A stretch of DNA of 35,589 nt. It comes from a virus. The number at the start of each line of letters is the position of its first letter. Position 1 is the stretch's first letter. Made by a program: the position numbers and the translations under genes. This document shows positions 13,887-26,996 of the stretch, in pieces. The notes beneath the pieces are model-generated. The model saw only the letters and a program-made list of their open reading frames with translations, had not been told where the DNA came from and made no database searches. The stretch lies in the IMG/VR virus record IMGVR_UViG_3300007640_000103, positions 1 to 35,589 of that record; one strand, given 5' to 3'.

Positions 13887-14452
13887 TGATACCTGAATGG
13901 GAACATACTTATCAAAAATCTGGTAAAACTATGACAAAGTATTGGCTTTGGAAAGACAGAGATAAGTTACCCAAGAAACATAAAGAAGTATTACGGCAAA
14001 CTGCCCTAATTCAGAGAAATAAAGCTTATTGCTGTAACTCTGAAGGAGAGAAGTTTGTTAAGAATCCTATCAAAGCAGGTAAACCCAATGTTTGGGTACT
14101 TAATGGACAGGATTTATACAACGCAGTCATCAATTGGCGATTGCGTAAAACAGTAGCAAACTACTATCATAATTATTTTGCAGAGTACATAAAGGAGCAA
14201 CTACAACCCATATCTATACCAGCTGGAAAATATTTATCCATATCTTGTGATATATATGAGATAAAGCGAGGAAATATGCCAGATGCGTCAAATATGTGGT
14301 TACTTGAAAAGTTCTTTGAAGATGCTTTGCAAGAGTGCGGTATTATCCCTGATGATAGCCCAGATTATGTAATGGAAAGTGGTAGAAAAAGGTATCACTG
14401 GGTGGAAACTCCTAGTGAGAGAAAATTAATATTCACAATTAAATTCATATGA
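13865..14452 (+). CDS. RusA-like Holliday junction resolvase
   Basis: The C-terminal half has the RusA signature: a strand LSISCDIYEIKRG, then PDASNMWLLEKFFEDALQEC with the conserved Asp, Asn and Lys-like helix, then GIIPDDSPDYV carrying the paired Asp residues that bind metal. The N-terminal 95 residues are basic (TYQKSGKTMTKYWLWKDRDKLPKKHK) and longer than in the 120-aa E. coli RusA. It would resolve branched DNA during replication and packaging. It overlaps the lysozyme start by 4 nt. Confidence 0.8.
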   Translation: MLEEYRVVIPEWEHTYQKSGKTMTKYWLWKDRDKLPKKHKEVLRQTALIQRNKAYCCNSEGEKFVKNPIKAGKPNVWVLNGQDLYNAVINWRLRKTVANYYHNYFAEYIKEQLQPISIPAGKYLSISCDIYEIKRGNMPDASNMWLLEKFFEDALQECGIIPDDSPDYVMESGRKRYHWVETPSERKLIFTIKFI

Positions 14453-15081
14453 TGAGAATAGCAACAGTATTTTTAGTAGCTATGGTCTTTGGCCAGCTTA
14501 CTAAGAAAAAAGATAGTACTAATGAAAATATGTTAATAGAAACAGAAGAGCAAGTTGTTAGGTGCGATACTAGTATTGTACCTACAAAAGCTGTTGATAC
14601 ACGGGACATGTATCAGTTAGCTTTAGGACACTTAAAAGAATATGAAGGTTTTCGTTCTGAAGTTTATATTGATGTTGATGGTAGTAAAACTTTAGGATAT
14701 GGTCATCATCTTCTCCCAGGGGAAGATTTTGTAACTATATCTGAAAAGCAAGCTACAAATTTGTTGATTCGAGATTTAAATCTTAGGATTCAACATGTGG
14801 AGAGTACTTATTCCTTAACAGGGAATCAAGCTCTTGCGTTAGGTTTATTTGCGTTTAATGCAGGTACTGGGAATCTAAAAAAAGCTGTAGACAACGGATT
14901 ATTAGGAGATATAAATAGACTCCTCCAATATTGTCATTACAGAGTAAAAATTAATGGAAAGAGAGTAATGAAAACTTCAAAGAAACTCCTAGAGAGAAGA
15001 CAGTTTGAAGTAGCTTTATATAAAAGCTCTATCCCCAGTAAGCACGACAACGTAGATGTTGAGGTGAGTTTTAAAAATTAA
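14449..15081 (+). CDS. T4-type lysozyme (GH24 muramidase) with N-terminal signal or anchor
   Basis: The enzyme cleaves the N-acetylmuramic acid to N-acetylglucosamine bond of peptidoglycan. The catalytic triad matches T4 lysozyme in order and spacing: E66 (EGF), D75 and T81 (TLGYGHH), equal to E11, D20 and T26. Residues 3-17 are hydrophobic after an Arg (RIATVFLVAMVFGQL), so it is exported by Sec or held as a signal-anchor endolysin. A linker of about 45 residues precedes the domain. It lies in the replication block, not in a lysis cassette, and 11 nt ahead of the beta-grasp protein. Confidence 0.9.
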   Translation: MMRIATVFLVAMVFGQLTKKKDSTNENMLIETEEQVVRCDTSIVPTKAVDTRDMYQLALGHLKEYEGFRSEVYIDVDGSKTLGYGHHLLPGEDFVTISEKQATNLLIRDLNLRIQHVESTYSLTGNQALALGLFAFNAGTGNLKKAVDNGLLGDINRLLQYCHYRVKINGKRVMKTSKKLLERRQFEVALYKSSIPSKHDNVDVEVSFKN

Positions 15082-15092
15082 AAAGTTAAAAA

Positions 15093-15344
15093 ATGACAAC
15101 AAGAAAGATTACAGTTCTTTCTACTAAGACTAATGGTGAAGGTAGAAAAGAAGTTATGACTGATGCTGCAACATGGGGGCAACTAAAAGTAGCTATTGAA
15201 GCTGCTGGATTAAGTACTGCTGATATGAAAGCAACAGTAAGATCAACTAAGAATAGCTTAGATCGTGACGATGCTGAAATTCCAGCGGGAGACCAAGTTA
15301 TTTTCTTGACCCCTGCAAAGGTGAAGTCTGGAGTTAATGCTTAA
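15093..15344 (+). CDS. Ubiquitin-like beta-grasp protein (83 aa)
   Basis: The pattern is that of MoaD/ThiS/ubiquitin-like proteins: a first strand KITVLST, a second strand KEVMTDA, a helix WGQLKVAIEAAG, a strand KATVRST, the acidic turn LDRDDAEIPAGDQ and a last strand VIFLTPAKVKSG. The C-terminus is SGVNA, not GlyGly. A single Gly four residues from the end could be exposed by trimming VNA. The genes for a JAMM peptidase, an E1-like enzyme and an E2-like protein follow within 4 kb, which supports a conjugated modifier. A sulfur-carrier role is the alternative. Confidence 0.75.
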   Translation: MTTRKITVLSTKTNGEGRKEVMTDAATWGQLKVAIEAAGLSTADMKATVRSTKNSLDRDDAEIPAGDQVIFLTPAKVKSGVNA

Positions 15345-15354
15345 TTAAATTTAA

Positions 15355-15480
15355 ATGTCAAATTTAAGTTTAGACGAAGAAATTGAAAGAGACACAATAG
15401 AAATGGAAAATGATATTGTCAACTGTTTCACTGAAATTCGTGAATTAGCAACCCAGGTACCAGCAGAAACAAGTAATTAA
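15355..15480 (+). CDS. 41-aa acidic protein next to the ubiquitin-like gene
   Basis: An ATG at 15355 follows a strong leader (ttaattaaatttaaATG), 10 nt after the ubiquitin-like gene. The 41 residues are acidic and helical (SLDEEIERDTIEMENDIVNC), with one Cys, ending QVPAETSN. The frame ends at TAA 15478-15480, just before a terminator, so it is the last gene of the transcript carrying the modifier. No family is recognised. It could be a cofactor or a substrate of the cassette. Confidence 0.6.
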   Translation: MSNLSLDEEIERDTIEMENDIVNCFTEIRELATQVPAETSN

Positions 15481-15490
15481 TTAACCAGAG

Positions 15491-15521
15491 AGGGCTTCCT
15501 ATATTTAAGGGAGCCCTTTTT
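15491..15521 (+). terminator. Intrinsic terminator between modifier and enzyme genes
   Basis: AGGGCTTCCT at 15491-15500 pairs with AGGGAGCCCT at 15508-15517 (10 bp with one G-U pair, 7-nt loop), followed by TTTTT. It lies after the beta-grasp and 41-aa genes and before the E2-like gene, so the modifier may be made in excess of the enzymes. Confidence 0.88.
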
Positions 15522-15532
15522 AAAATTAAAAT

Positions 15533-16987
15533 ATGGAATTAGAAGAAGAATTACACCAAACTGCACAAGTATCTGAAGAAAATAATATACTATTCTCACT
15601 TTCAATAGGCCGTATAGGATATGGTTTAGAAGTAAATATTGGCGAGTTTATAGCACTTACTAATATAACTAATATAAATCAGCTCTATGATAGTGGAACT
15701 TCTAGCGTAGTTAGAAGACACACTAATAGTTGGAGAAATTGGATATCCCCTGAAACACGATTAATAGGACAAGTACTAAATACATTTTCAAACAATGTTA
15801 AAGTAAGCATCATCTGTTTAAAAGATATAGAAGGGAATGAAGCGGCAGTGGTTTTAACTGTAAAGGTACCCATTAATGTGGTCCGTAAGTTTACCAATAT
15901 ATCAGAAGAACAGAGGCAAGTCTTAGAGGTAGAGAGACTTAAGGGGCTAGAAGCTGTAGATAAGTATTCTGAAGAAGTTGCACAGAAGTTCTTTGAGGAG
16001 AATAAGACTCTTTTAGAAGAAAGAATAGCTACTGTTAAAGAATTAGCTGAAGAGATGCACCCTGGAGACTGGGATTTTGCCCGTTTAGTTGCAGATGAAT
16101 TTAAGAATTCTGATGCAGCTAAGTACAGGTTAACTATTCATTTCCCAGAGATTGAAATCACTAATAGTGAGGGAGAGGAGCATAAAATTACTGATTTATA
16201 TGTATCTATGTTCTTTGATGAAAGCATGGCACATTGTTCAGATTGGCATGGAGCTAGAGGGTCTTTAAGCTTTGCAGAATATTGTGCTGAATACAGACAT
16301 TCTCATTTATCTGGATTAACTAGTGGCTATAGTCATTTTTGTCTAGGAGAGGGGACTACTGTAGATATTGTTAATGGACTATTAGCTGATAGATGGAATC
16401 CTGATTTATTAATGAGAGCGTTACTTTTAATGCACACTTATGTTAGGTGGGAATCGTTAGAAGGAGGACCTTATTGCGAGATGAGTAGTATTGCATCTAA
16501 CTCAAATGAATCAATATCTTTCCCTTCTGAAGTTGATAAGAGAACTGTAGTAACAGAATTACTTAAAGACTGTACAGATTTTCCAGCAAAGATAGAGGAG
16601 AGTAATGGATTAAAAGCTTTTAAAGTGGATCCTACAGATCCTCATTTTGAAAGTATAGTTACAAAATATACTCCAGGCAGATATAAAGTCTTGAAGACAG
16701 CTTCTGGTGAATATCTAAATGCCGCTTCTAATTTAGAAGAGCAATTAGACAGGTCTGAGGAAGCAGATACTTTTTATTCAAATGAACCAGTTAGAAGAAA
16801 AATACGTTATAAAGAACAGACCATTAATATGACAGTTCTTCCTGATGTAGAAGAAGACACGGAACATTTGTTAGTAGCTAACCCTGAAATTACACGGTAT
16901 GTAGCTGAGAAGTTAGAGAAAGAATTAAATAAATATGAATTAAATAAAAGACAACATGAGTTTAGCAAAATGCAACAGAGTTCATAG
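15533..16987 (+). CDS. Predicted E2-like ubiquitin-conjugating protein (484 aa)
   Basis: The middle of the protein has an E2-like order of elements: strands YRLTIHFPEIEIT and ITDLYVSMFF, the HxH-containing YRHSHLSG (H256, H258), then SHFCLGEG with Cys270 twelve residues on, then ADRWNPDLLMRALLLMHTYV, which resembles the W-x-P-helix after the active Cys of E2 enzymes. An N-terminal domain of about 200 residues and a C-terminal helical extension flank it. It would take the activated modifier from the E1-like enzyme at 18201. Homology rests on pattern and context only. It overlaps the JAMM gene by 32 nt. Confidence 0.6.
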   Translation: MELEEELHQTAQVSEENNILFSLSIGRIGYGLEVNIGEFIALTNITNINQLYDSGTSSVVRRHTNSWRNWISPETRLIGQVLNTFSNNVKVSIICLKDIEGNEAAVVLTVKVPINVVRKFTNISEEQRQVLEVERLKGLEAVDKYSEEVAQKFFEENKTLLEERIATVKELAEEMHPGDWDFARLVADEFKNSDAAKYRLTIHFPEIEITNSEGEEHKITDLYVSMFFDESMAHCSDWHGARGSLSFAEYCAEYRHSHLSGLTSGYSHFCLGEGTTVDIVNGLLADRWNPDLLMRALLLMHTYVRWESLEGGPYCEMSSIASNSNESISFPSEVDKRTVVTELLKDCTDFPAKIEESNGLKAFKVDPTDPHFESIVTKYTPGRYKVLKTASGEYLNAASNLEEQLDRSEEADTFYSNEPVRRKIRYKEQTINMTVLPDVEEDTEHLLVANPEITRYVAEKLEKELNKYELNKRQHEFSKMQQSS

Positions 16988-18197
16988 AAGAACTTTATTT
17001 CCTATGGAGGAAAAAGCCACTTTACGTCTTAGCAAAAAGTTAATAGATACTATTGCTCTTTGCCACAAGAAAGTAAAAAGAGATACGGAGTGGAGTGGAG
17101 TTTTAATCTATGATACTGTTGAAGGCAGTGTTAATGATCCTGAAAATTGGGTGATAGAAGCTGAGGATATGATTCTTATGGATATCGGTACAGGGTCATA
17201 CACCGAGTATGATTTTGATCCTGAGGATGAGTATTCTTACGATACGTATTGTAATGCCATGATGGAAGGTAAAAAGTTGGGACATATACACACCCATCAT
17301 AGTATGGATACCTTTTTCTCAGGGACTGATACTTCTGAATTACATGACAACGCCCCTAATCATAATTACTATCTAAGTTTAATTGTAAACTATGATGGTA
17401 AATGGATGGCAAAAGTAGCTATATGTGGAGCTATAGAACAAACAGGATCTATGACTACTAAAGTTACTTATTTAAATCCAGATGGTTTTGAGGAAAAGGT
17501 TCTTGAAGAGGCAGTAGAGGATACTACAGAAGTTCTATATACTATTGATTTACAATTAGAAATTGTAGAAGATGTTTCTGAAGAAACTGAGGCTTTAGTA
17601 GAGCGTATTAAGGATTTATCTACTAAAACCGTAGTATATAACTTTGGAAATCGTCAAGCTGGAAATTTTCAGGGGGCCCACGCAGGAAAGACGTGGGCTT
17701 GGGATTACGACAGGGGTGTATTTGTGGACGCAAAAAGCGAAAACGAAAGCGATACAACCCCAACTGTCCTGTCCACGGAAAAATCTACCACGAGCAGTAA
17801 AGCTTTTAACCAATGGTTACGTGAGGATAACAAATATACTCCAGGGAAAGTAAGACCTTTCCTGATAGATCTTGTTATGGGAACTGCATTTAAGGAGGAC
17901 TTATCTCAGATGTTTCTAGCAGTTAAAGATGTAGGAGACAACTATCAAGAAATGTTGATAGATAAACTAGAGGATGACATAGAAGAGTATGCAGCAGAGT
18001 ATTTTGACTTAGCTAAGGTTACGGATTTAGATATGCACTGTATTAGTGCTTCAATACTAGATGCCTGTGCCCCGTATAAAACAGAAGACTTTTACACATT
18101 ACTTGCTATACTTCTAGAGCATAATTACATCTTAACAGTTCCTAATCGAGAAGAGGAATTTAGATTAACAGGATTAACACCTTTATTATATACATAA
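16956..18197 (+). CDS. JAMM/JAB-domain metallo-isopeptidase (413 aa)
   Basis: This is a zinc peptidase of the JAB/JAMM class, the fold that removes or matures ubiquitin-like modifiers. The full motif is present: E45 (EWSGVLIY), H112-T-H114, then S122 and D125 with the exact H-x-H-x7-S-x2-D spacing. A Glu-rich linker and a GC-rich insert (17674-17776) separate this domain from a helical C-terminal domain of about 140 residues. The start at 16956 overlaps the E2-like gene; ATG 17004 is an alternative that still keeps the whole motif. It lies 3 nt before the E1-like gene. Confidence 0.88.
   Translation: MSLAKCNRVHRRTLFPMEEKATLRLSKKLIDTIALCHKKVKRDTEWSGVLIYDTVEGSVNDPENWVIEAEDMILMDIGTGSYTEYDFDPEDEYSYDTYCNAMMEGKKLGHIHTHHSMDTFFSGTDTSELHDNAPNHNYYLSLIVNYDGKWMAKVAICGAIEQTGSMTTKVTYLNPDGFEEKVLEEAVEDTTEVLYTIDLQLEIVEDVSEETEALVERIKDLSTKTVVYNFGNRQAGNFQGAHAGKTWAWDYDRGVFVDAKSENESDTTPTVLSTEKSTTSSKAFNQWLREDNKYTPGKVRPFLIDLVMGTAFKEDLSQMFLAVKDVGDNYQEMLIDKLEDDIEEYAAEYFDLAKVTDLDMHCISASILDACAPYKTEDFYTLLAILLEHNYILTVPNREEEFRLTGLTPLLYT
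17674..17776 (+). repeat. GC-rich palindromic insert inside the JAMM gene
   Basis: GCCCACG at 17676-17682 pairs with CGTGGGC at 17692-17698. Then GACAG plus GGGT at 17709-17717 pairs with ACCC at 17757-17760 and CTGTC at 17764-17768 past a small bulge, and GTGGAC at 17724-17729 could pair instead with GTCCAC at 17771-17776. The segment is richer in G and C than the surrounding gene and encodes a low-complexity linker (AKSENESDTTPT). The reading frame stays open. Confidence 0.6.
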
Positions 18198-18200
18198 AAT

Positions 18201-18950
18201 ATGAAAGAAGACAAGGAAGAAAAAGTAAGTCTTAGACAGACTAGATTTAAAGACGCAGACTGGTTCTTAATAGGCCCCCAAGATATTATCGTTGGGGGTG
18301 TAGGAGGAATTGGCTCTTGGGCTTCAATGCTATTAGCTAGAATAGGACATACATTAACATTATTTGATGATGATACTATTGATGCTAGTAATATGGGGGG
18401 CCAACTCTATAGAACTAACCAAATAGGACAGAATAAAGCTTCAGCAATGAAGCAAACTATTGTAGACTTTTGTGAAATGTATCCTAATGTATTAGGGCGC
18501 TACACAGAAGACTCCCCAACATCTAACATTGTATTTAGTTGCTTTGACAACATGGCAGCTAGAAAGTTAATGTTTGAAGCTTGGGCTTCTAATGAAGATA
18601 GGGAATTATTTGTAGATGGTCGTATGCTGTTAGAAACGGGTATGGTCTATGTAGTTCAAAAAGGAGAAGAGGATAGATACCGTGCAGAATTATTTGAGGA
18701 TGCAGATATCGAAGAAGTAGCTTGTTCTTTAAAAGCAACATCTCATTGTGGTGCGTTTATAGCTTCATTAATGGTAAGTGGTCTTAACAACTATCTTGCT
18801 AATAAACATATGGGAATCGAGGCAAGGATAGTTCAATTCCGTACTGATTTTGAGTTACCGTTACTTAATGTAACGGAGGTTACAAGTCAGGTGGAAGAGG
18901 TAGCTACTGTAGAAGAGGAATCTAAAATAGAAGAGAATGTTATCGCTTAG
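18201..18950 (+). CDS. E1/ThiF/MoeB-like adenylating enzyme (249 aa)
   Basis: This Rossmann-fold enzyme would adenylate the C-terminus of the beta-grasp protein. The nucleotide loop is GGVGGIGS (residues 32-39). Then come FDDDTIDASN (D56-D58, N64), Q68, the conserved K79 in IGQNKA and the second Asp D116 in FDN. Candidate catalytic cysteines are C175 and C183 (VACSLKATSHCGAF). The Arg finger of the usual N-x-x-R-Q motif is Gly (NMGGQ). No CxxC zinc pairs are present. An acidic tail closes the protein, which overlaps the next gene by 14 nt. Confidence 0.88.
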   Translation: MKEDKEEKVSLRQTRFKDADWFLIGPQDIIVGGVGGIGSWASMLLARIGHTLTLFDDDTIDASNMGGQLYRTNQIGQNKASAMKQTIVDFCEMYPNVLGRYTEDSPTSNIVFSCFDNMAARKLMFEAWASNEDRELFVDGRMLLETGMVYVVQKGEEDRYRAELFEDADIEEVACSLKATSHCGAFIASLMVSGLNNYLANKHMGIEARIVQFRTDFELPLLNVTEVTSQVEEVATVEEESKIEENVIA

Positions 18951-19863
18951 AGGACAAAGAACTAAAGATGCAGATAATAAATTGGAGTACCCAGTCCTTC
19001 CTAAAGGAGGATTGGAGTATACTCCTCTGTACTGTATAAAGCCCCCTATTATTGGGGAGATTGCCGCTATACCTAATGCTGAAGGTTTTAATGCTATTAT
19101 TAATGATAAGCTTATTGTTCAGGTAGGTAACACTATTGTCAATGATTTAGCTCCTTATAAGTCAATATTAGGGAATAGATTTAAAGATATTAGTGCAGGA
19201 ACTGCTACTGATGGAGTACAGCATATAAGTGAAATGGAAGCTTTTTGTGAGAGAGCTCCTTTATCTATATTGGCGTATGCAGAAAGAGAAGAAAATGATT
19301 TTTCTTTTTTTCTACCCAGTGGTCTAACAGGAGGTACTACCACTACTTATAATGATGTATTTGAAGACATAAATAACTATGATTGGACCTCTAAAGCAAT
19401 TTCAGGCATGGAGTTTCTTTTGAACAAAGGTGCTTGTTTTGAGGTCATTAATGGAAGTAATGGTTCTATCCAAGTAAAACCTATTTTTATTACCTTAGTG
19501 AAAACTAAGTATTTAAAGTATGTAAAGCTATGTTACCTTACAGGTAGAGAGCCCAATCCAGAAGTCTTTGAAATCTGGGAATGTCCAGAATTTGATGTTG
19601 TCAACTCCAAATACAATTACTTAAGATTACAATATAAAAATCGACTAGGAAAAGTAGACAAAGAAGACGAGAGAAAATTCAATAATTATCAAATAAAGAG
19701 AGATATTTTAAATGAGTTATTTGTCACGATTACAATACCAGAGGGGGTTAGAACTCTTGCGGGTATTAATAATTGGATAGATCAGACAGTCTCAGACTGT
19801 TTAGCTCACTTAAAAGTTTCTAAAGATTTAGAAAATACAGCAAATGTAGAATTATCATTTTAA
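18937..19863 (+). CDS. Unrecognised protein coupled to the E1-like gene (308 aa)
   Basis: It overlaps the E1-like gene by 14 nt and is last in the E2-JAMM-E1 operon, so it is probably part of the same system. It is soluble, with mixed alpha/beta character. Notable segments are FSFFLPSGLTGGTTTTYNDV, an IFITLVKTKYLKYVKLCYL strand-helix region and a basic stretch (YKNRLGKVDKEDERKFNNYQ). I see no RING-type Cys/His pairs and no known domain. It could be a substrate, an adaptor or a specificity factor. Confidence 0.75.
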   Translation: MLSLRGQRTKDADNKLEYPVLPKGGLEYTPLYCIKPPIIGEIAAIPNAEGFNAIINDKLIVQVGNTIVNDLAPYKSILGNRFKDISAGTATDGVQHISEMEAFCERAPLSILAYAEREENDFSFFLPSGLTGGTTTTYNDVFEDINNYDWTSKAISGMEFLLNKGACFEVINGSNGSIQVKPIFITLVKTKYLKYVKLCYLTGREPNPEVFEIWECPEFDVVNSKYNYLRLQYKNRLGKVDKEDERKFNNYQIKRDILNELFVTITIPEGVRTLAGINNWIDQTVSDCLAHLKVSKDLENTANVELSF

Positions 19864-19873
19864 ATTTATTTAA

Positions 19874-20626
19874 ATGAGAAAAATTGCAGTTATAGATGGA
19901 GACTCCATTTGTTATATCTGTAGTAAAGACACAATTGTTGAGAGTCTACAAAATGTAGATTCAATAATGAATTCCATTGGAAAAGAGACAGGTAGTAGTG
20001 ACTACTACTTGTTTCTCTCCCAAGGATCATATTTCAGACATGAAGTTAACCTTGACTATAAAGGGAAGCGCAAGTATGAAACAACTTTAAAGTACCTAAG
20101 AACTCTCAAAAGTTATTTACGAGAAGAGTACGGAGGCGTGAGCTATAAAGGAGTGGAAGCTGATGATATGTCTGCTTATGTAATGTGTAATCAAGAGGAA
20201 GGTAAAGAGTATATAAATTGCTCTCCAGACAAAGATGTTTTAAAAACAGTCTGGGGCCCTAATTTTAATTATAGAAGCCACGAAAGTGGACAAACTAGTG
20301 TAGAGGAAGCTATAAAATTTATTTTTATCCAAACCTTAATGGGAGATAGTACTGATAATATTGCAGGACTTCCAGGGATTGGGCCAAAGAAGGCAGAGAT
20401 TATGCTAGACGGAGCTGAAGGCTTTAAAGAAATGAAGAGTAGAGTACTTGATGCTTACCAACATGAATATGGTATAGGATCAGGTATTTATCATTTCCAG
20501 AAGAACTTTAGACAAGTGTATTTACTACGAACAAAGAGTGATTTCCAAAATGAAGTAAGGTATGTTCCAGAACTACCCGAGCTTCAACAATTTAGAATTT
20601 TCAATGAAGAAGAACACGGTTTTTAA
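19874..20626 (+). CDS. 5'-3' exonuclease (FEN/RNase H-like)
   Basis: This nuclease would remove RNA primers and flaps, the activity missing from the polymerase at 3462. The metal-binding residues lie in the expected motifs: D8-G9-D10 at the N-terminus, YKGVEADDMSAY, SPDKDVLK and MGDSTDNIAGLPGIGPKKAE, the last being the Asp pair and helix-3-turn-helix that bind DNA. At 250 aa it has the size of phage 5'-3' exonucleases. It overlaps the next gene by 23 nt. Confidence 0.93.
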   Translation: MRKIAVIDGDSICYICSKDTIVESLQNVDSIMNSIGKETGSSDYYLFLSQGSYFRHEVNLDYKGKRKYETTLKYLRTLKSYLREEYGGVSYKGVEADDMSAYVMCNQEEGKEYINCSPDKDVLKTVWGPNFNYRSHESGQTSVEEAIKFIFIQTLMGDSTDNIAGLPGIGPKKAEIMLDGAEGFKEMKSRVLDAYQHEYGIGSGIYHFQKNFRQVYLLRTKSDFQNEVRYVPELPELQQFRIFNEEEHGF

Positions 20627-26279: not shown

Positions 26280-26996
26280 GTGGAAGTAGCACAAGGAGAA
26301 TTAAGAGAATTAAGAGTAAATCAATTAAAATTCATGTCCTTTAATAGGGAAGTGAGTATGAAACAGGTTGATAAGTTAAGTGATTCTATATGTAAGTATG
26401 GAATTCTTAGGGTACCTGTTATCGTAAAAACTAGAGCTATGTCAGGGAGCCTGGAGTATTATATAGTTGATGGGCAGCATTTAATAAAGAGTCTTATCAA
26501 AAATGAAGTGAGTAAGGTAACTTGTTTGATATTTGAGTCTGAGAATAAAGCTGAGATAGTTAATACTATGGCAGTTTTGAACAACATAGTGAAAAAATGG
26601 ACCCCTGAGAATTATGTAAAAGCATTTGCAGGATTAGGAGACAGTAATTATCAACAATTACAAACACGTGTTGAAATATCTGGATTTTCTTATACAGCAA
26701 TGGGGACCATACTAGGAAACGCTACAAAAATTAAACAGGGTACATTTGTAGTAGAGAACACAGATGCTAATAGTTTAATAAGATATGTATCGGAGATATG
26801 TAGTATTTTAGAAGCACACAACAATAAATTTATTACAGGATTTGTGAGTTTTTACAGACATCCTAGTTTAACTAGATACAACCATAGTGAGTTTAAATTA
26901 AAGTTATTAACTTCTTTAGAGGAATTTAAACACTTACCTTACATATCTAGGGAAGCAACAATTACAGAAAAGCTTTTAGAAGTATATAATAGATAA
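26280..26996 (+). CDS. ParB/Srx-like protein (238 aa)
   Basis: The N-terminal 90 residues match the ParB/Srx-like fold: LRVNQLKFMSFNREVSMKQV, then LSDSICKYGILRVPVIVK, and the signature VDGQHLIKSLIKN in place of the usual GxHR motif. The C-terminal part is helical and may bind DNA. The fold is used by ParB CTPases, nucleases and kinases, so the activity cannot be settled from sequence. The start is GTG at 26280 after an A-rich leader. It is the last plus-strand gene before the convergent junction. Confidence 0.75.
   Translation: MEVAQGELRELRVNQLKFMSFNREVSMKQVDKLSDSICKYGILRVPVIVKTRAMSGSLEYYIVDGQHLIKSLIKNEVSKVTCLIFESENKAEIVNTMAVLNNIVKKWTPENYVKAFAGLGDSNYQQLQTRVEISGFSYTAMGTILGNATKIKQGTFVVENTDANSLIRYVSEICSILEAHNNKFITGFVSFYRHPSLTRYNHSEFKLKLLTSLEEFKHLPYISREATITEKLLEVYNR

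Follow-up and report, generated by a model that had tools for sequence, protein, structure and literature searches.

A window of viral DNA of 35,589 nucleotides, positions 1 to 35,589 of the IMG/VR record IMGVR_UViG_3300007640_000103, carries six plus-strand open reading frames that lie end to end between a lysozyme gene and a 5'-3' exonuclease gene (Table 1). In 5' to 3' order they encode a ubiquitin-like protein (Ubl), a 41-amino-acid tail protein, an E2-like protein, a JAMM (JAB) metallopeptidase, an E1-like enzyme and a protein termed X. The original prediction, made from the window alone, was that of a complete ubiquitin-like conjugation cassette within a crAss-like phage, and all six reading frames are found on the strand and at the places it gave. 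With a probability of about 0.7, the cassette represents a phage-encoded Ubl conjugation system that crAss-like phages and related ones inherit as a unit within their replication block.

Table 1. Reading frames of the cassette and nearby genes in the window (position 1 is the first letter of the window).
Feature	Position	Strand	Basis or remark
Ubl, 83-amino-acid ubiquitin-fold modifier	15093..15344	+	AlphaFold2 beta-grasp model, Foldseek against PDB, invariant Gly80
Helical "tail" protein, 41 amino acids	15355..15480	+	Position matches the fused Ubl tail of other phages
E2-like protein, 484 amino acids	15533..16987	+	Family alignment; confident AlphaFold2 core
JAMM/JAB metallopeptidase, 413 amino acids	16956..18197	+	Motif; matches PRTRC protein A by profile
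E1-like adenylating enzyme (ThiF family), 249 amino acids	18201..18950	+	Pfam ThiF, PDB profiles, hhalign, conserved columns
Protein X, 308 amino acids	18937..19863	+	14-base overlap with the E1 end; gene of this kind after E1 in 79 loci
Phage lysozyme-like gene	14449-15081		Directly upstream of Ubl, inside the replication block
5'-3' exonuclease gene	19874-20626		Downstream of protein X
ParB-like gene	26280-26996		Not adjacent to the cassette

The cassette recurs widely in phages. A scan of IMG/VR with an E1 alignment detects 237 relatives, from which 79 loci were kept (the best 80 being retained); adding the window and four phage records brings the set to 84 loci. All counts are per locus, and the set includes near-duplicates. 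The order Ubl-E2-JAB-E1 on one strand is found in 82 of the 84 loci, and the two exceptions, L011 and L025, are contig ends. By gene, Ubl is present in 82 loci, E2 in 82, JAB in 83 and E1 in 84. As loci were picked on E1 alone, the co-occurrence of the other three genes is a result and not an effect of selection. The order persists down to ~20% identity and is not a chance arrangement. Its strong conservation in related phages, cultured Crassvirales included, agrees with the original prediction. In the cultured gut phage crAss001 the products are gp79 (Ubl), gp78 (E2-like), gp77 (JAMM), gp76 (E1) and gp75 (X), and further records with the cassette are PhiCrAssBcn, DAC15, cr128_1 and Flavobacterium phage FpV4.

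The Ubl of the window has a secure ubiquitin fold as judged from its predicted structure. The AlphaFold2 model displays a beta-beta-alpha-beta-beta arrangement with a mean predicted local distance difference test score (pLDDT) of 82, and almost all of its Foldseek neighbours in the PDB are ubiquitin-fold domains. The matches comprise UBX, ISG15, Caldiarchaeum ubiquitin, NEDD8, SUMO, MoaD and a bacterial Ubl-deubiquitinase complex, only one of them below an E value of 0.001. Gly80 is invariant across 63-65 aligned relatives, mostly within the motif K-[S/A]-G. The mature protein is predicted to end at ...AKVKSG (Gly80), leaving a three-residue stub, VNA.

What follows this glycine divides the loci into two classes. 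Short Ubls, found at 20 loci (16 without near-duplicates), stop 1, 3 or 5 residues past the Gly and never on it; long Ubls, found at 62 loci, continue for 21 to 252 residues beyond it. At 18 of the 20 short-Ubl loci, the window among them, a separate small reading frame of 39-131 amino acids lies between Ubl and E2; of the two exceptions, L053 has a doubtful frame of 25 amino acids and L041 has none. At long-Ubl loci the space before E2 is too small for a separate frame. The distance from Ubl to E2 is 67-391 bases in the short class versus -4 to 92 in the long class (p=4e-11, loci taken as independent). One separate reading frame, that of L040, is homologous to the fused tail of L033 (E=9.9e-6). 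The equivalence of the other separate frames with fused tails rests on position, since these frames are too short or diverged, and the 41-amino-acid frame of the window matches only its near-identical copy in L005. These sequences are most simply read as encoding two products, Ubl and tail, which are fused in some phages and separate in others. By processing such a precursor, the JAMM is predicted to free the Ubl glycine. By eye, the fused tails of L013, L018 and L028 resemble SAP or other helical domains. A DNA-binding (SAP) tail is not claimed, as Pfam SAP is matched in one member alone (3e-4).

The 413-amino-acid protein is securely a JAMM peptidase by its sequence. As stated in the original prediction, every motif residue is there (E45, H112-x-H114 (HTH), S122 and D125); each is shared by 83 of the 84 relatives aligned, and 48 of 64 relatives match Pfam Prok-JAB. 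The enzyme is predicted to act both in Ubl maturation and in deconjugation. The E1 fold of the 249-amino-acid protein is likewise secure. It matches Pfam ThiF at 9.9e-22, and its PDB profile matches are to UBA5, MccB, ThiF and Cap2. Conserved residues are the G33xGG nucleotide loop that had been noticed at the outset, D58, N64, K79, D116, R121 and Cys175, the last present in 84 of 84 ungapped rows. The protein thus has the Rossmann ATP loop and the catalytic Asp and Lys of ThiF/MoeB/Uba enzymes.

Group I introns usually settle at conserved sites in important genes. One such intron (Rfam RF00028) lies directly after the DGR motif of E1 at L070:7405-7921, and the E1 gene of L072, a near-copy of L070, is split likewise. 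Another (Rfam RF00028) interrupts the JAMM motif directly after H-T-H at L012:4968-5204. Their positions are consistent with activity of the HTH motif of JAMM and the DGR motif of E1.

An E1 of the ThiF family, labelled "thiamine biosynthesis protein" in GenBank, might also point to a sulfur-carrier system of the ThiS-ThiF or CysO-Mec+ type. Here Ubl would bear a thiocarboxylate destined for a metabolite or for tRNA, and the JAMM would release it; the mycobacterial CysO pathway does employ a JAMM. This explanation is very improbable. No thiamine, molybdopterin or cysteine genes are recognised alongside the cassette, whose neighbours are replication genes, and an E2-like cysteine protein is found in every case, together with the JAMM, but no rhodanese domain.

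The E2-like protein is the least secure part of the proposed conjugation system. The predicted active site of the window protein is Cys270 in FCLG, with H256-S-H258 upstream. The family motif is H-[S/P]-H followed by F-C-[LTI]-G, and the Cys is present in 82 of 83 members, the sole exception being a gene fragment. L009 and L010 carry H-P-H in place of H-S-H, which is nearer to the classical H-P-N. An AlphaFold2 core spanning residues ~151-320, with pLDDT mostly 86 or more, displays a helix, four strands, H-S-H, a short strand, Cys270 and two helices. In motif and element order the 484-amino-acid protein and its model resemble an E2, a label that is plausible but not proven. Of what was originally predicted, Cys270 within FCLG is conserved, but the W-x-P after it varies in relatives and an E2 fold is not recognised. 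Of the three folds proposed at that stage, the beta-grasp, from the predicted structure, and the E1, from sequence, are secure; E2 is plausible only.

Several observations weigh against a conjugation pathway. Ubl terminates in one Gly instead of Gly-Gly. In E1, the Arg of N-x-x-R-Q is replaced by Gly in 83 of 84 phage proteins and is invariant in the PRTRC E1s compared; adenylation must therefore use other residues or be altered. R15, R121 and R141 are candidate stand-ins for the missing Arg. Foldseek of the E2-like model against the PDB gives no E2 among the matches listed and none that is significant, and an E2 Pfam match is found in 0 of 67 E2-like members. Alignment of the family with PRTRC B by hhalign is weak (E 0.019, probability 2.5%), yet it is centred on the Cys motif. 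Against BFVD, Foldseek matches of the model are mainly to its own family.

These results leave some room for a system of Ubl, E1 and JAMM in which the putative E2 is no E2, and transfer is by E1 or by another Cys/His enzyme, as in the E2-less SAMP/Urm1 systems. Failure of Foldseek and profile searches to recognise an E2 fits this alternative, as does W-E-S-x-x-G-x-P, the strongest other motif of the family, which is foreign to classical E2s. However, the H-[S/P]-H and Cys motifs mirror the HPN...Cys order of E2, the succession of helix, four strands, Cys and two helices is that of E2, and the PRTRC E2 alignment, though weak, falls exactly on the Cys motif. The Cys is invariant, and the E2-like gene always stands alongside E1 and JAMM. 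Absence of a true E2 is considered unlikely, although it is the least improbable of the alternatives.

Between the window and L005, the only locus retrieved by a single-protein scan, the cassette genes differ by a single base, which alters the last Ubl residue, beyond the Gly. E1 is under strong purifying selection in close pairs (e.g. nonsynonymous divergence, dN, 0.005 and synonymous divergence, dS, 0.147), and Ubl and JAMM are under purifying selection in most. Compared with E1, the E2-like protein changes faster, and in some pairs (L031/L034, L021/L022) dN is near dS. Phage phi14:2, of the same subfamily as crAss001, gives no match to any of the four core-gene profiles, whereas crAss001 matches all four; the set is therefore gained or lost as a unit. 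In one scan, 84,980 bacterial and archaeal genomes show only three weak ThiF matches, and at the sensitivity of that scan no prophage or chromosomal copy of the cassette is seen among them.

Ubl-based defences occur in bacteria, and the cassette might serve only as an anti-defence device, its Ubl, E1, E2 or JAMM disturbing CBASS Cap2/Cap3 or Bil of the host without forming a pathway of its own. A fast-evolving E2-like protein (dN 0.192, dS 0.225 in L031/L034) and a phage, phi14:2, that manages without the set are consistent with this. A decoy, however, would need less than a complete set in fixed order that is, by motif, catalytically intact. PADLOC families fit no further than general E1 and JAB similarity, and the cassette is located in the replication block and in no accessory region. 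A purely anti-defence role thus appears very improbable, slightly more so than the sulfur-carrier role.

The closest known counterpart of the phage conjugation cassette is the PRTRC system, or Iyer-Burroughs-Aravind operon type 6d, which contains Ubl, JAB, E1-like, E2-like and helical proteins (PMC1779556); the phage set would work in a similar way but is not filed as PRTRC. Both have a Ubl with a conserved C-terminal Gly, a JAMM, a separate E1, a separate E2-like protein with C-x-G and one more fast-diverging protein. The phage E1 aligns with PRTRC ThiF at E=1.4e-19 (hhalign), but its score of 41.8 bits is under the NCBIfam PRTRC ThiF cut-off of 144.75. The phage JAMM matches PRTRC A with a profile probability of 92%, whereas Ubl and X, compared by profile with PRTRC C and F, show no match. 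The PRTRC gene order, E-C-F-B-A-ThiF, is unlike that of the phages. Prok_Ub (PF14454) and Prok-E2_D (PF14460) are matched by PRTRC proteins and by no protein of the window or its relatives. The upstream H-x-H is found in the phage E2-like protein but not in PRTRC-B, and a DUF2016 domain belongs to PRTRC-A. PRTRC sits on plasmids, with a ParB gene within the operon.

Other systems are less close. CBASS Cap2/Cap3 and Bil share the theme of E1, E2 and JAMM acting with a conjugated protein, and the phage E1 is similar to the PADLOC E1-E2 and to Cap2 in the PDB. These are host defences, however, and Cap2 is an E1-E2 fusion, whereas the phages have four separate genes and a dedicated Ubl. In phages lambda and T1, tail assembly proteins I and K represent a Ubl and a JAB-NlpC protein; the Ubl has a terminal Gly and a fused C-terminal domain, and a JAB cut is predicted at the Gly (PMC1779556). 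That set belongs to the tail-assembly genes and lacks E1 and E2, in contrast to the cassette in its replication block. The Xanthomonas jumbo phage PhiXhv-15 (L092, 2817-6696) has, close together, a small protein ending in ASGG, an 892-amino-acid HPH...CLG protein and a ThiF. No JAMM is recognised in that stretch, and the sequences are far from those of the cassette.

Other genes surrounding the cassette encode DNA polymerase A, a helicase, DnaB, a primase, RusA, UDG and ribonucleotide reductase. The window is assigned to crAss-like phages, in line with the original prediction, because its 1804-amino-acid minus-strand protein matches an RNA polymerase subunit of Cellulophaga phage phi14:2. A ParB-like gene is found ~6 kb further downstream; ParB is a component of PRTRC operons too, but the gene in the window does not adjoin the cassette. 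The X-type gene stands directly after E1, which it overlaps by a median of 4 bases over the 79 loci that have it. By BLAST, X products form two large clusters (33 and 27) and small ones, and they are fast-evolving. Protein X of the window has no Pfam or PDB match. No named family is found for Ubl, E2-like, tail or X in Pfam, NCBIfam and PHROG scans, and PDB profile searches with E2-like, JAB, X and Ubl give low-complexity or chance matches only.

For the phage cassette, catalysis, transfer to protein and targets are what we infer, and the pathway would proceed as follows. JAMM would cleave the Ubl precursor after K-[S/A]-G and so strip off either the fused tail or the stub of 1-5 residues. E1 would adenylate the Ubl Gly and take it onto Cys175, from which Ubl would be handed to Cys270 of the E2-like protein. 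Ubl would then be joined to a target protein of phage or host, probably in replication or host takeover, and JAMM might take it off again. Protein X and the tail may select targets or serve as partners. The location of the cassette among replication genes hints at, without proving, a part in replication or takeover. A wider proposal is put forward only tentatively, at somewhat less than even odds: that Crassvirales and related phages own a Ubl pathway that has an E2 family of its own, does not stem from known bacterial operons and reversibly tags proteins of replication or takeover.

A description of the cassette in Crassvirales was not found in the searched literature, which excludes most subscription journals; within the same limit this agrees with the original statement, which knew of none. 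Ubiquitin, ThiF or the gp numbers are absent from the searched papers on crAss001, Crassvirales and crAss-like gene blocks. In databases the genes are labelled "thiamine biosynthesis protein", "metalloprotease domain" or "hypothetical", and many records that name them as thiamine biosynthesis or hypothetical proteins are corrected by the present assignment. Direct testing is feasible in crAss001, which is in culture together with its host and encodes the set as gp79-gp75. Crassvirales rank with the most abundant phages in the human gut, and the roles of many of their genes are obscure. Within the searches made, the complete Ubl-E2-JAMM-E1 set would be the first virus-owned Ubl conjugation pathway described in bacteriophages. 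Carried by a common group of Bacteroidota viruses, such a phage-owned pathway would contrast with the bacterial Ubl systems known as defence.

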